Source: Lentilactobacillus sp. Marseille-Q4993
GTDB taxonomy: Bacteria > Bacillota > Bacilli > Lactobacillales > Lactobacillaceae
Assembly (NCBI RefSeq): GCF_951230165.1
Contig: NZ_CATNVB010000016.1
Location: 1 to 52,355 of the forward strand
Direction: 5' to 3'
DNA length: 52,355 nt
Made by a program: the position numbers and the translations under genes. Shown piece after piece: positions 4,886 through 14,736 of this stretch. The notes under the pieces are model-generated. The model searched no databases, had not been told where the DNA came from, and saw only the letters and a program-made list of their open reading frames with translations. Position 1 is the stretch's first letter, and every line of letters begins with the position of its first letter.

Positions 4886-5602
4886 ATGGCAAAGAAAATA
4901 TTAGTAGTTGACGATGAGAAGCCCATCGTTGATATTGAAAAGTTTAACCTAGAAAAGGAAGGGTATGAAGTCTCCGTTGCGTATGACGGCGAAGAAGCCC
5001 TTGAACAAGTGAATGATGTTGATCCAGATCTCATCATCCTTGATTTGATGTTGCCAAAAATGGATGGATTGGAAGTAGCTCGTGAAGTTAGAAAGACCAA
5101 AGATACGCCAATCATCATGGTTACGGCTAAGGACTCTGAATTAGACAAGGTTCTTGGATTGGAATTAGGAGCGGACGATTACGTTACTAAGCCATTCTCA
5201 AACCGAGAGTTAGTTGCGAGAGTTAAGGCTAACTTACGACGCCAAACTGCCAGTGTTAACAACACTGACCAGACTGAGGAAAACCAGGATATTACTATCG
5301 GTGATCTGGTTATTCATCCAGATGCTTATTCCGTTTCTAAACGGGGAGAAAACATCGAGTTAACTCACCGAGAGTTTGAATTACTCCATTACTTGGCTCA
5401 ACATATTGGTCAAGTTATGACGCGAGAGCATTTACTACAAACAGTTTGGGGCTACGATTACTTTGGTGACGTTAGAACTGTCGATGTTACCGTTCGGCGT
5501 TTGCGTGAAAAAGTCGAAGATAATCCAAGTCACCCAACCTGGCTTGTCACCCGTCGTGGGGTTGGTTATTACTTAAGAAACCCAGAAAACGACCAAGCAT
5601 AA
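4886..5602 (+). CDS. walR: response regulator WalR (YycF)
   Basis: OmpR-type response regulator of the essential WalRK system that adjusts peptidoglycan hydrolase expression. The 238 residues hold a receiver domain with acidic pocket D9-D10, phospho-acceptor D53, T80 and K102 (in VTKPF), then a winged-helix DNA-binding domain from about 130 containing [16 protein letters not shown] and [18 protein letters not shown] lies in frame at 4880, but TAGGAGA at 4872-4878 is correctly spaced for the ATG at 4886, so I use that start. It heads a five-gene operon. Confidence 0.96.
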
Positions 5603-12282: not shown

Positions 12283-12762
12283 TTGAATATTAAGTTGGTT
12301 GTTGTTGGGAAGCTAAAGGAAAAGTATTTTAAACAGGGGATTGCGGAATACGCAAAGCGGTTATCGCGCTTCTGTAAGTTTTCGATTGTCGAGGTTCCCG
12401 ATGAAAAGGCTCCAGAATCATTGAGCCAGGCCCAAATGGATGACGTGATGGAAAAGGAGGGAGAACGGATTCTCGAGAAGATCAAGGATAAGGAGTATGT
12501 TTTCGCACTGGCAATTTTGGGCAAGGAACGTTCCTCAGAGGAGTTTGCTAAGGAGATTCAGGATCTCACCACCTATGGCCACTCAGATATTACCTTTGTT
12601 ATTGGCGGCTCATTGGGAATGTCCCAAGATGTTTTGAAGCGGGCTAATACCCAAATTTCGTTTGGGCGGTTCACGTTACCACACCAGTTGATGAGACTGG
12701 TGTTGACGGAACAGATATACAGGGCGTTTATGATAAATGAGGGGAGTCCGTATCATAAATAA
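12283..12762 (+). CDS. rlmH: 23S rRNA (pseudouridine1915-N3)-methyltransferase RlmH
   Basis: SPOUT-class methyltransferase (OrfX) that uses SAM to methylate pseudouridine 1915 of 23S rRNA. The 159 residues match the family length and start [15 protein letters not shown]. The knot-forming C-terminal part shows [18 protein letters not shown], then [23 protein letters not shown], ending INEGSPYHK. The start is TTG at 12283, with AGGAGG 8 nt upstream and no better ATG. Its last codons form one copy of a direct repeat with 13505-13523 (see the separate entries). Confidence 0.95.
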
Positions 12763-12763
12763 T
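12745..12763 (+). repeat. att-like direct repeat, copy 1 (3' end of rlmH)
   Basis: AGTCCGTATCATAAATAAT encodes the last residues of RlmH (SPYHK) plus the stop codon. Copy 2 at 13505-13523 differs at one base. The rlmH 3' end, with the core TATCATAA, is also the attachment site of staphylococcal SCC elements. Confidence 0.75.
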
Positions 12764-12847
12764 GAGGTTTATTAAGACATACAACTCGATGGCCACTCAG
12801 TGTACATCTAGGTTTTGTTTTTAAAAGTTTACAATTATTGGAGGTGT

Positions 12848-12952
12848 AATTATCTTTCGGCTAAGAAGTATGGATACAATTTTTCAATATATAGAGATGA
12901 TGAGATTGGTAAAATGAAACGAGAACTTGTATTAAATATCAATAAGCAATAG
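12848..12952 (+). pseudogene. short unrecognised ORF remnant inside the putative insertion
   Basis: A frame without a proper start codon reads about 34 residues, including KKYGYNFSIYRDD and EIGKMKRELVLNINKQ, before a TAG stop. The charged, regular composition looks like the tail of a real protein rather than random sequence, but I do not recognise the family. No ATG with an SD exists in this frame, so if it is real it is a decayed fragment. Confidence 0.3.
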
Positions 12953-13026
12953 GTGTGAATAAAATCGGTTATATTGATTAGCGCAAGTATTAAAATAATA
13001 GGTAAAGCTAATTTCCATTTAAAAAT

Positions 13027-13056
13027 AAAACTACATCTCAAACGATGTAGTTTTTT
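13027..13056. terminator. bidirectional terminator below the DUF6176 gene
   Basis: AAAACTACATC and GATGTAGTTTT pair around a 6-nt loop, with T or A tracts on both sides. It overlaps the stop codon of the minus-strand gene ending at 13055. Confidence 0.75.
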
Positions 13057-13411
13057 AGTTCATATTATTCATTATTTTATCTGGGATCATAACTACTTTT
13101 GGGTCCAAATCAATAGGTTTTGTTGACTCATCAATACATTCATTCCAGTATTCAATGTGCTTTTTATCAATCCTACTGTCTGATGATTCTACGGATTGTC
13201 CCCCAGTTCCTTGAACTGAGAACCAGTACAAAAATTCGCCTTCGGCTTTCTGTTCTTTAAATATAACTTCTACATACATTTTTTCATTTTCAAGTGTTAA
13301 CAGGGTTTCGTGCATATTGTCGTTCAAAAATCTAAGCCATTCCTCAACCTTTGCTTCTTTACCCGCTTTTACTTTGAATCTTGTTAACTCAGTTTTAATC
13401 GTAATTAACAT
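13055..13411 (-). CDS. DUF6176 family protein
   Basis: A 118-residue cytoplasmic protein matching my memory of the DUF6176 family: TELTRFKVKAGKEAKVEEW, then MHETLLTLENEKMYVEVIF, FLYWFSVQGTGGQ and KKHIEYWNECID. Function unknown; the fold is probably ferredoxin-like (inference). The frame is open up to 13540, but that extension is not family-like. The ATG at 13411 gives the right N terminus, yet an AAGGAG directly abuts it (zero spacing), which is unusual. It is the only intact gene within the segment bounded by the rlmH-end repeats. Confidence 0.7.
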   Translation of the reverse strand: MLITIKTELTRFKVKAGKEAKVEEWLRFLNDNMHETLLTLENEKMYVEVIFKEQKAEGEFLYWFSVQGTGGQSVESSDSRIDKKHIEYWNECIDESTKPIDLDPKVVMIPDKIMNNMN

Positions 13412-13504
13412 CTCCTTAATTCGAAAATTCAATAGTCTTTTACATAAACAAGTATAAATTAAGTTTTTCAGGTTGAAAATACCAGCAGTATAAAATGATA
13501 CGCA

Positions 13505-13523
13505 AGTCCGTATCATAGATAAT
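13505..13523 (+). repeat. att-like direct repeat, copy 2 (duplicated rlmH 3' end)
   Basis: AGTCCGTATCATAGATAAT matches the rlmH 3' end at 18 of 19 positions and would encode SPYHR and stop. It is followed directly by a terminator hairpin, as would be expected of the original sequence downstream of rlmH. Confidence 0.75.
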
Positions 13524-13529
13524 CCCACC

Positions 13530-13559
13530 AAAAAAGACATCCTCCTTGGATGTCTTTTC
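13530..13559 (-). terminator. terminator of the DUF2075 gene
   Basis: AAAAGACATCC and GGATGTCTTTT form an 11-bp stem with a 5-nt loop; on the minus strand six T residues follow. Before the inferred insertion it would also have served rlmH from the other side. Confidence 0.8.
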
Positions 13560-13566
13560 GCTTACC

Positions 13567-14736
13567 TTATTTACCTGTCTTATACAGTTCCATCAATCTC
13601 TTTCTCAACGCACCGTCATACGCAGTTAAGTACATTCCGTACTTTCCCCGTTTCATCAGCACGTTCAAGACGTTAGCAATAAATGTCTTATATTCTTCCT
13701 TGCTAAACTTGATATCCTTACGTTTCTTGAAGATTTCCTTATGAGAGTACTTTTCTGGAATAATGGTCATTGTATCGGTGATTGGATCGTAACCAAATGA
13801 TGGTCCGATAATCATCCCCACGTAGTTGAGATCAAACCCTTGTAATGTGTAGATAGTTCCAACCTGGGTGATTGAACCTTCCCATTTTGCCCAGTGGGTT
13901 CTTTGAGGATCCCACTCATCCCAAGGCAGACTAAACGTATCCATTTCCACGTTGTGGCGGCCATCAATTCGAGGAAATCCAGATGTAGCAACGACCCGGC
14001 TCATGCCGACTTCCTTGTTCCGTTTCTTGATGTCTTCGAATAGCGCTCCGGCGGTATCGTAAACCTTAAATTCAAAGTCACTGTTGTCTGGAAATGGCTT
14101 CATTGGTTTTTCAGCGGTCAAATCATCCATCCAAGCAACTTGTTCGTCACTGGCAACCATTCGATACTGGAAGTTCATATCGAATAGCTTGTGGGGGTGG
14201 GAACCAATCGTTTTGTAAAGAAGGTCCTTATCCCAGTACATCTTGGATTGGAAAACTTGGTCGAAATCGTAAACCACAACGACTACCTTAGCCAAATTCA
14301 TTAAGTCGGTTAATTGGTTCTCACCGCGGTAATGGGCGTATGGTTCCGGTTTGGAATAAAGCAAGTGTGCTTCATCCACAAAGATAATATCGTACTTTTT
14401 ATGGTTCTTTTGAGCGTAGTTGATCAATGAAGTTGGTCTGCGAATCGAACTAACTTTCATGCCTGGAATCGACTCACCAAGGTCACGGTATGCCTTGTAT
14501 AGCTCAGGGTGGTTGACTACGAGGTATGTTTTGTAGTTTTTGTCAGTCATGTACTGGCGAACTAATTCCATTAACACTACTGATTTACCAGTTCCGGCGG
14601 CTCCTTCGATAATTGCAACCGAGTGCTGGTTACCGTTGAGTCCCTGTTGGATATAATCGTTAATGTTGGTAATGGTGGCCTTCTGGTCATCAGACAGGTC
14701 ATCCACAAAAAATTGTTCCTTTAATATTTCGTTCAT
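13567..14736 (-). CDS. DUF2075-family P-loop ATPase/helicase-like protein
   Basis: A predicted superfamily I helicase-like ATPase of unknown role. The protein of about 389 residues has Walker A in IIEGAAGTGKSVVLMEL (about 42-58), Walker B IIFVDEAHLLYSKP (about 116-129), an FQYRM motif, and a late GTIYTLQGFDLNYVGMIIGP segment similar to motifs V/VI of UvrD-like enzymes. Relatives often carry extra N-terminal nuclease domains; none is present here. Two tandem ATGs exist; the second (14736) is better spaced from TAGGAGT than the first (14739). It diverges from the hemH operon. Confidence 0.8.
   Translation of the reverse strand: MNEILKEQFFVDDLSDDQKATITNINDYIQQGLNGNQHSVAIIEGAAGTGKSVVLMELVRQYMTDKNYKTYLVVNHPELYKAYRDLGESIPGMKVSSIRRPTSLINYAQKNHKKYDIIFVDEAHLLYSKPEPYAHYRGENQLTDLMNLAKVVVVVYDFDQVFQSKMYWDKDLLYKTIGSHPHKLFDMNFQYRMVASDEQVAWMDDLTAEKPMKPFPDNSDFEFKVYDTAGALFEDIKKRNKEVGMSRVVATSGFPRIDGRHNVEMDTFSLPWDEWDPQRTHWAKWEGSITQVGTIYTLQGFDLNYVGMIIGPSFGYDPITDTMTIIPEKYSHKEIFKKRKDIKFSKEEYKTFIANVLNVLMKRGKYGMYLTAYDGALRKRLMELYKTGK

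Follow-up and report, generated by a model that had tools for sequence, protein, structure and literature searches.

A probable small cassette of the cassette-chromosome type, without its own recombinase genes, at the 3' end of rlmH in Lentilactobacillus sp. Marseille-Q4993

The segment from position 12763 to about 13523 of the DNA analysed here is very likely a small cassette of the cassette-chromosome type (SCC/ECC) that has entered the 3' end of rlmH, a gene for ribosome modification. In staphylococci, methicillin resistance is borne by cassette chromosomes. The window, i.e. the whole stretch of 52,355 nucleotides, is one complete contig of the genome of Lentilactobacillus sp. Marseille-Q4993 (G000, 2.28 Mb in 75 contigs). 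Since no ccr gene was found in the cassette and no CcrB-model match at E 0.001 was found in its genome, it is a recombinase-less or decayed cassette and not a full SCC or ECC. Relatives carry fuller versions with recombinase genes, and thus the cassette-chromosome kind appears to extend into lactobacilli. The initial annotation had proposed an SCC-like minimal or decayed element without a recombinase of its own, and this proposal is supported by the clustering of rlmH-tail copies, a model of the right end, ccr genes at the same site and a pair of Lentilactobacillus senioris genomes. The features of the locus are as follows.

12283..12762, plus strand: rlmH, 159 aa, TTG start (SPOUT_MTase, PF02590, E 3.1e-59)
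12745..12763, plus strand: attL-like copy, AGTCCGTATCATAAATAAT, core TATCATAA, inside the 3' end of rlmH
12763..12778, plus strand: left inner end, TGAGGTTTATTAAGAC, resembling TGCGGTTTTT of other loci; agrees with TGCGGTT at 6 of 7 positions
12779..13026, no strand: AT-rich left part without a recognisable gene, containing ORF 12815-12952
13027..13054, minus strand: terminator-like hairpin 3' of the DUF6176 gene
13055..13411, minus strand: DUF6176 gene, intact, 118 aa from the ATG at 13411 (PF19673, E 2.2e-45, 153.5 bits, cut-off 27)
13481..13504, plus strand: right inner end, ACCAGCAGTATAAAATGATACGCA
13495..13516, no strand: att-core inverted repeat, ATGATACG-caagtc-CGTATCAT, spanning the inner end and attR
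13505..13523, plus strand: attR-like copy, AGTCCGTATCATAGATAAT, core TATCATAG, which differs by one change from TATCATAA
13567..14739, minus strand: DUF2075/SLFN-g3 helicase gene (PF09848, E 1.1e-99)

The last 19 bp of rlmH recur 760 bp downstream (start to start) with one mismatch, as had been noted before (12745-12763 against 13505-13523, 18 of 19 bp identical), and the second copy reads S-P-Y-H-R-stop, in agreement with the SPYH-x-stop predicted for it. The segment thus bounded is inserted at the 3' end of rlmH, which is the attachment site, and the gene stays intact; rlmH was present in all 60 genomes searched, its own genome among them. The direct repeats carry TATCATAA in attL and TATCATAG in attR. 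The attL core had been likened to that of SCCmec, and this is borne out by what PMC6222049 says on SCCmec and ECC. The C in the core that Wang et al. called essential, as quoted there, is retained in both window copies. The 18-mer from the rlmH end was found at these two places and nowhere else in the whole window when up to three mismatches were allowed. When the window was shuffled 100 times, the mean was 0.12 such matches and three shuffles gave two or more, and therefore the repeat alone is suggestive but short of conclusive.

To place the repeat among relatives, we surveyed 80 named rlmH loci from lactobacilli, the best of 492 relatives, over up to 10 kb per side, using the 18-bp rlmH end of each locus as its own query with up to three mismatches (661 kb searched downstream, 767 kb upstream). 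Same-strand copies numbered 18 downstream (at 15 loci) and one upstream, while opposite-strand copies numbered none downstream and one upstream; eight of the 18 downstream copies carry three mismatches, the level at which chance matches are most to be expected. At 14 of the 80 loci, a copy lies at a distance of more than 300 bp, and 11 of these 14 are among the 63 loci with at least 5.5 kb downstream. In the genus of the window, 3 of 24 genomes (G000, G007, and G014) have a copy on the strand of rlmH no more than 20 kb from the gene, the contig ending soon after rlmH in several of the others. A pattern search of 397 family genomes gave G254, G346, G373, and G389 as examples among the matches listed.

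The two inner ends of the segment also resemble those of other loci. The right-end model was a weight matrix built on the 24 bp that precede the second copy at 25 other sites, with the repeat and the window excluded, and it ranked the right end of the window first of 104,664 positions. A 16-bp matrix for the left end ranked the left end of the window 53rd of 104,680 positions. When the 25 training sites were left out in turn, four (right) and six (left) fell below the 0.96 percentile, and some of these sites come from related species and are not independent. The inverted motif GATACGG, at five or more of seven positions, precedes 21 of 33 second copies including that of the window (background 1.3%), and TGCGGTT, at the same threshold, follows the rlmH end in 22 of 27 second-copy loci including the window (background 1.5%); these counts mix named loci with loci picked for a repeat or a ccrB gene. 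TGCGGTT was also present in 19 of 63 named loci counted as without a second copy, and thus the motif alone is no proof of an occupied site; at one of these 63 loci (L127), the second copy lies beyond the stretch examined there. The inverted repeat at attR (13495-13516) was absent from the initial annotation and surfaced as a terminator-like stem in a hairpin scan. Its position is that of the inverted motif in other loci.

Between the repeats, the DUF6176 gene is the only evident cargo, and its presence there, noted earlier, holds. The "coding remnant" also reported (ORF 12815-12952, 45 aa) had no match in Pfam or in plasmids, nor at any of 127 rlmH loci, and cannot on this evidence be called a remnant. 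The segment is AT-rich as described (GC 0.27-0.34, against 0.40-0.47 in rlmH and the DUF2075 gene), but the DNA just before rlmH is likewise low in GC (0.33-0.35). A terminator had been placed before the DUF2075 gene; a hairpin at about 13535-13555 can be seen by eye, but it is absent from the list of the hairpin scan. Queries with the CcrA, CcrB, and Cch proteins of L. senioris gave no ccr trace in the segment, the best being a 10-residue match to Cch (E 1.9). The cassette is therefore an att-bounded segment at rlmH without ccr recombinase genes of its own. A duplicated piece of rlmH inside the cassette was also considered and rejected, the sole match being 12 bp exact (12789-12800 against the middle of rlmH, E 0.046), which is probably due to chance.

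Of 397 family genomes, 32 contain DUF6176. G000 alone represents its genus in this set, and at least 20 genus mates lack DUF6176 among the matches listed. Comparison of the window segment with 127 rlmH loci gave no DNA match. On these grounds an ancestral segment is rejected, and the situation that was said to speak against an insertion, namely that all relatives carry the segment, does not apply. The DUF6176 protein of the window shares 68% identity with a protein encoded on a 4.8-kb Macrococcoides plasmid, and its best match among the other DUF6176 proteins of the family is 58% (29 of the 31 others compared; two had no locus). Plasmid DNA matches the DUF6176 part of the segment at 69.5% at most, over half of the segment (two best of 13 plasmid records). 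The gene was probably acquired from outside the genus. DUF6176 was not found in viral contigs and had no sequence match in the PDB.

The DUF2075 gene is likely to be the native right neighbour of rlmH. In Paucilactobacillus, the two genes are 35 bp (P. wasatchensis, L130) and 78 bp (P. kaifaensis, L121) apart. The distance in the window is 808 bp, or 48 bp by the same measure when the 760-bp unit is taken out, and we infer the empty site of the window from these Paucilactobacillus junctions. Among 20 relatives in which DUF2075 follows rlmH (counted without duplicates and without a 41% paralogue, L139), 18 have 1.2-17 kb between the genes, and the other two are the Paucilactobacillus loci. A second tail copy with up to three mismatches was found in only two of the 18 (L129 and L134), so most of the variation between rlmH and DUF2075 is without a visible repeat.

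It had been suggested that larger insertions with ccr-type serine recombinases be looked for at this site, and they were found in L. senioris YQ005, which belongs to the same genus, and in other genera. CcrB-model matches at E 1e-60 were obtained in 7 of 397 family genomes (303-536 bits), and all seven CcrB-like genes share the strand of rlmH and begin or end 4.9-13.9 kb downstream of it. In five of the seven, a further tail copy is present beyond ccrB (up to three mismatches; both copies in G184 have three), while in G187 and G209 none was found within the 9.9 and 8.5 kb examined. The ccrB of G262 is in two pieces by tblastn. At the order level, 10 of 295 genomes gave CcrB-model matches. In six of them, ccrB follows rlmH on the same strand, 9-19 kb downstream, and the G508 gene contains an internal stop. 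G511 carries it on the opposite strand, 1.4-2.9 kb downstream of rlmH, and the matches of G058 and G510 (210-214 bits) are not close to rlmH. An additional, lower-scoring CcrB match is present on a different contig in G432. The curated CcrB cut-off of 900 bits was reached by none of the 397 family and none of the 295 order genomes. In G623, there is a second rlmH copy (C1:745437-745889) about 67 kb from the other, and a CcrB-like gene lies about 8 kb beyond the second copy.

Two L. senioris genomes were compared, YQ005 (G014, L052, and L127) and DSM 24302 (L129 and L054). After rlmH, YQ005 encodes a 595-aa Cch-like protein (7.5e-79; Cch1 model, 266 bits) that matches PDB 5dgk, which we take to be the SCCmec helicase, at 1.1e-63. 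It also encodes a 460-aa CcrA-like protein, for which the CcrA (1.6e-44, 152.8 bits) and CcrB (1.2e-42, 146.3 bits) models are nearly equal, and a 548-aa CcrB-like protein (9e-126, 420.7 bits against the cut-off of 900). A tail copy follows the ccrAB genes at +14158. DSM 24302 lacks this 14,158-bp ccrAB unit, and the agreement between the genomes beyond it begins inside the att copy. Because the border of the ccrAB unit falls inside att, the units of L. senioris, as far as two aligned genomes tell, are separable exactly at att. The genomes are not from close strains, as their DNA is 87.7% identical up to the rlmH end (80.1% next to rlmH) and 92-93% identical beyond the second unit. The recombinase-less unit that they share is 98.9% identical, and thus it was probably exchanged recently between L. 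senioris genomes. Just inside its right copy, this shared unit keeps a C-terminal piece of ccrB (residues 477-537, 55% identical). The ccrAB unit of YQ005 (L052) contains arsenic-type genes, recognised by eye, and stands in tandem with a thioredoxin unit.

Small units are found at other rlmH loci as well. At 14 of the 80 named loci, tail copies enclose units of 1.3-5.4 kb, and no complete recombinase was found in these units by tblastn with L. senioris CcrA, CcrB, and Cch or by a Pfam scan of 43 of the 46 ORFs of at least 70 aa (all but three short ORFs in L072 and L084). The sole recombinase domains belong to a fragment inside the L122 unit that lacks the catalytic resolvase domain. At least three of the same 80 loci bear ccr (L091, L092, and L127). 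In another genus, L059 has a 562-bp unit with one gene (ASCH), which ends in an rlmH 3' remnant and not in a standard right end. The cargo includes defence-type genes (SIR2 and HerA in L075 and L084, GajA in L134), AAA_13 proteins (L072 and L122), a protein kinase (L103), acetyltransferases, regulators, ABC and MMPL transporters, and thioredoxins. Ten proteins were submitted to PADLOC, and the matches were strong for SIR2 and HerA (L075) and GajA (L134) and weaker for the kinase and the AAA_13 proteins. Two loci encode a large protein on the minus strand directly after rlmH, and neither protein has a PADLOC match. One is a 1105-aa protein with SIR2_2 (L043:16060-19377) and the other a 1200-aa protein with a match to an nSTAND3-like NTPase (L051:15771-19373). 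It is possible that they are undescribed defence genes.

How the window cassette arose can be envisaged as follows. A circular molecule bearing an att core and an end with an inverted repeat would have recombined into the core in rlmH, catalysed by a CcrA/CcrB-like pair of large serine recombinases. The rlmH end would have been rebuilt at attL, and the second copy left as attR. We infer this event, as well as any mobility today, and the recombinase would have been supplied in trans or lost since. Since the cassette has no ccr gene of its own, it should not move by itself. If a larger ccrAB element lost its recombinase genes by internal deletion, only the ends and one gene would be left. This reading, to which we give close to an even chance, agrees with the ccrB piece kept in the shared L. 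senioris unit without a complete recombinase, with the recombinase fragment in the L122 unit, and with the left 250 bp of the window cassette, where no gene is recognisable, but the 10-residue Cch match is all that the segment itself offers. That a mini-cassette was moved in trans by another element of the cell that carries CcrAB falls a little short of an even chance. The small units without a complete recombinase at 14 of 80 loci, the ccr-bearing loci among the same 80, the one-gene unit of L059, and the nearly identical L. senioris unit between diverged flanks, which points to recent transfer, argue for it. However, the L. senioris transfer could be homologous recombination or could have occurred alongside a ccr unit, all the small units may be remnants, and L059 has its unusual end.

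Two readings dispense with a cassette altogether. The site might be an insertion hotspot, into which DUF6176 came by homologous or illegitimate recombination, the repeat being incidental or a duplicated rlmH end. The variation between rlmH and DUF2075 in relatives, mostly without a repeat, would fit, but we consider this improbable in view of the first rank of the right-end model, the clustering of tail copies by side and strand, and the ccr elements that occupy the rlmH site. A chance repeat without biological meaning could be reconciled with the three shuffles that gave two or more matches, but hardly with a single mismatch in a copy lying directly downstream on the same strand with an end motif present. 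It is rejected on the clustering of tail copies and the right-end rank, and we give it almost no weight. Returning to small cassettes, we tentatively suggest, while inclining somewhat against it, that rlmH in Lactobacillaceae hosts a gene-cassette economy, in which small cassette-ended units without a complete recombinase are moved in trans by rarer CcrAB elements. It is held more probable because the recombinase-less L. senioris unit is so much more alike than its flanks. If this is true, the units would hold one to a few genes in 0.5-6 kb, some of them for phage defence (SIR2-HerA, Gabija GajA), somewhat like integron cassettes that depend on a separate integrase, and the DUF6176 unit of the window would be among the smallest.

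Pseudo-SCC elements and SCC remnants of staphylococci are likewise cassette-type DNA located at rlmH that lacks a functional ccr complex, and by description they differ from the window cassette in host, cargo, and size. SCC and SCCmec of staphylococci share with the lactobacillus elements the site, the core, matches in the family to the CcrB model (303-536 bits), and the match of the L. senioris Cch-like protein to the Cch1 model. They differ in that the lactobacillus CcrB-like proteins are all below the curated cut-off, and in that the CcrA-like protein of L. senioris scores nearly alike on the CcrA and CcrB models. The closest published relative of the window cassette is the Enterococcus cassette chromosome (ECC), described in 2018 (PMC6222049). 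ECC is likewise inserted at the rlmH 3' end, with the TATCATAA core, inverted repeats in attR, and variable cargo, and full ECC carries ccrAB, as the fuller lactobacillus elements do; an ECC remnant lies between attL and attR in strain BM4105-RF (PMC6222049). By its description there, ECC has ccrAB-Ent by definition, whereas the window cassette has no ccr, and the ECC example measures 32 kb and needed no more than a helper plasmid to be named for its laboratory transfer, while the window cassette is 760 bp with one gene and is in Lactobacillaceae (PMC6222049). Among the papers listed in literature searches, no cassette chromosome in lactobacilli was found by title or abstract start (preprints and most subscription papers were outside the scope). 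If our reading is true, the same site, end motifs, and recombinase families are present in food lactobacilli, and the system extends to a third family. Small recombinase-less cassettes could then be tested in lactobacilli, which are harmless, and an rlmH tail copy with an inverted end would be a rule for cassettes that searches for ccr genes miss.

Other arrangements of att copies were also observed. In Levilactobacillus (L082, L102, L103, and G285), two att copies are 61-63 bp apart with a similar spacer that looks by eye like TGCGGTTTTTCTTGGGATTAATCGC. These double copies perhaps represent an empty cassette or a double attB native to the genus. Longer pieces left over from the 3' part of an rlmH, with 65-82% protein identity, are present in L072 (+5320-5385), L059 (+482-559), and G285 (+14041-14184), where they adjoin or lie beyond second att copies, as though elements had taken a piece of some other rlmH with them.
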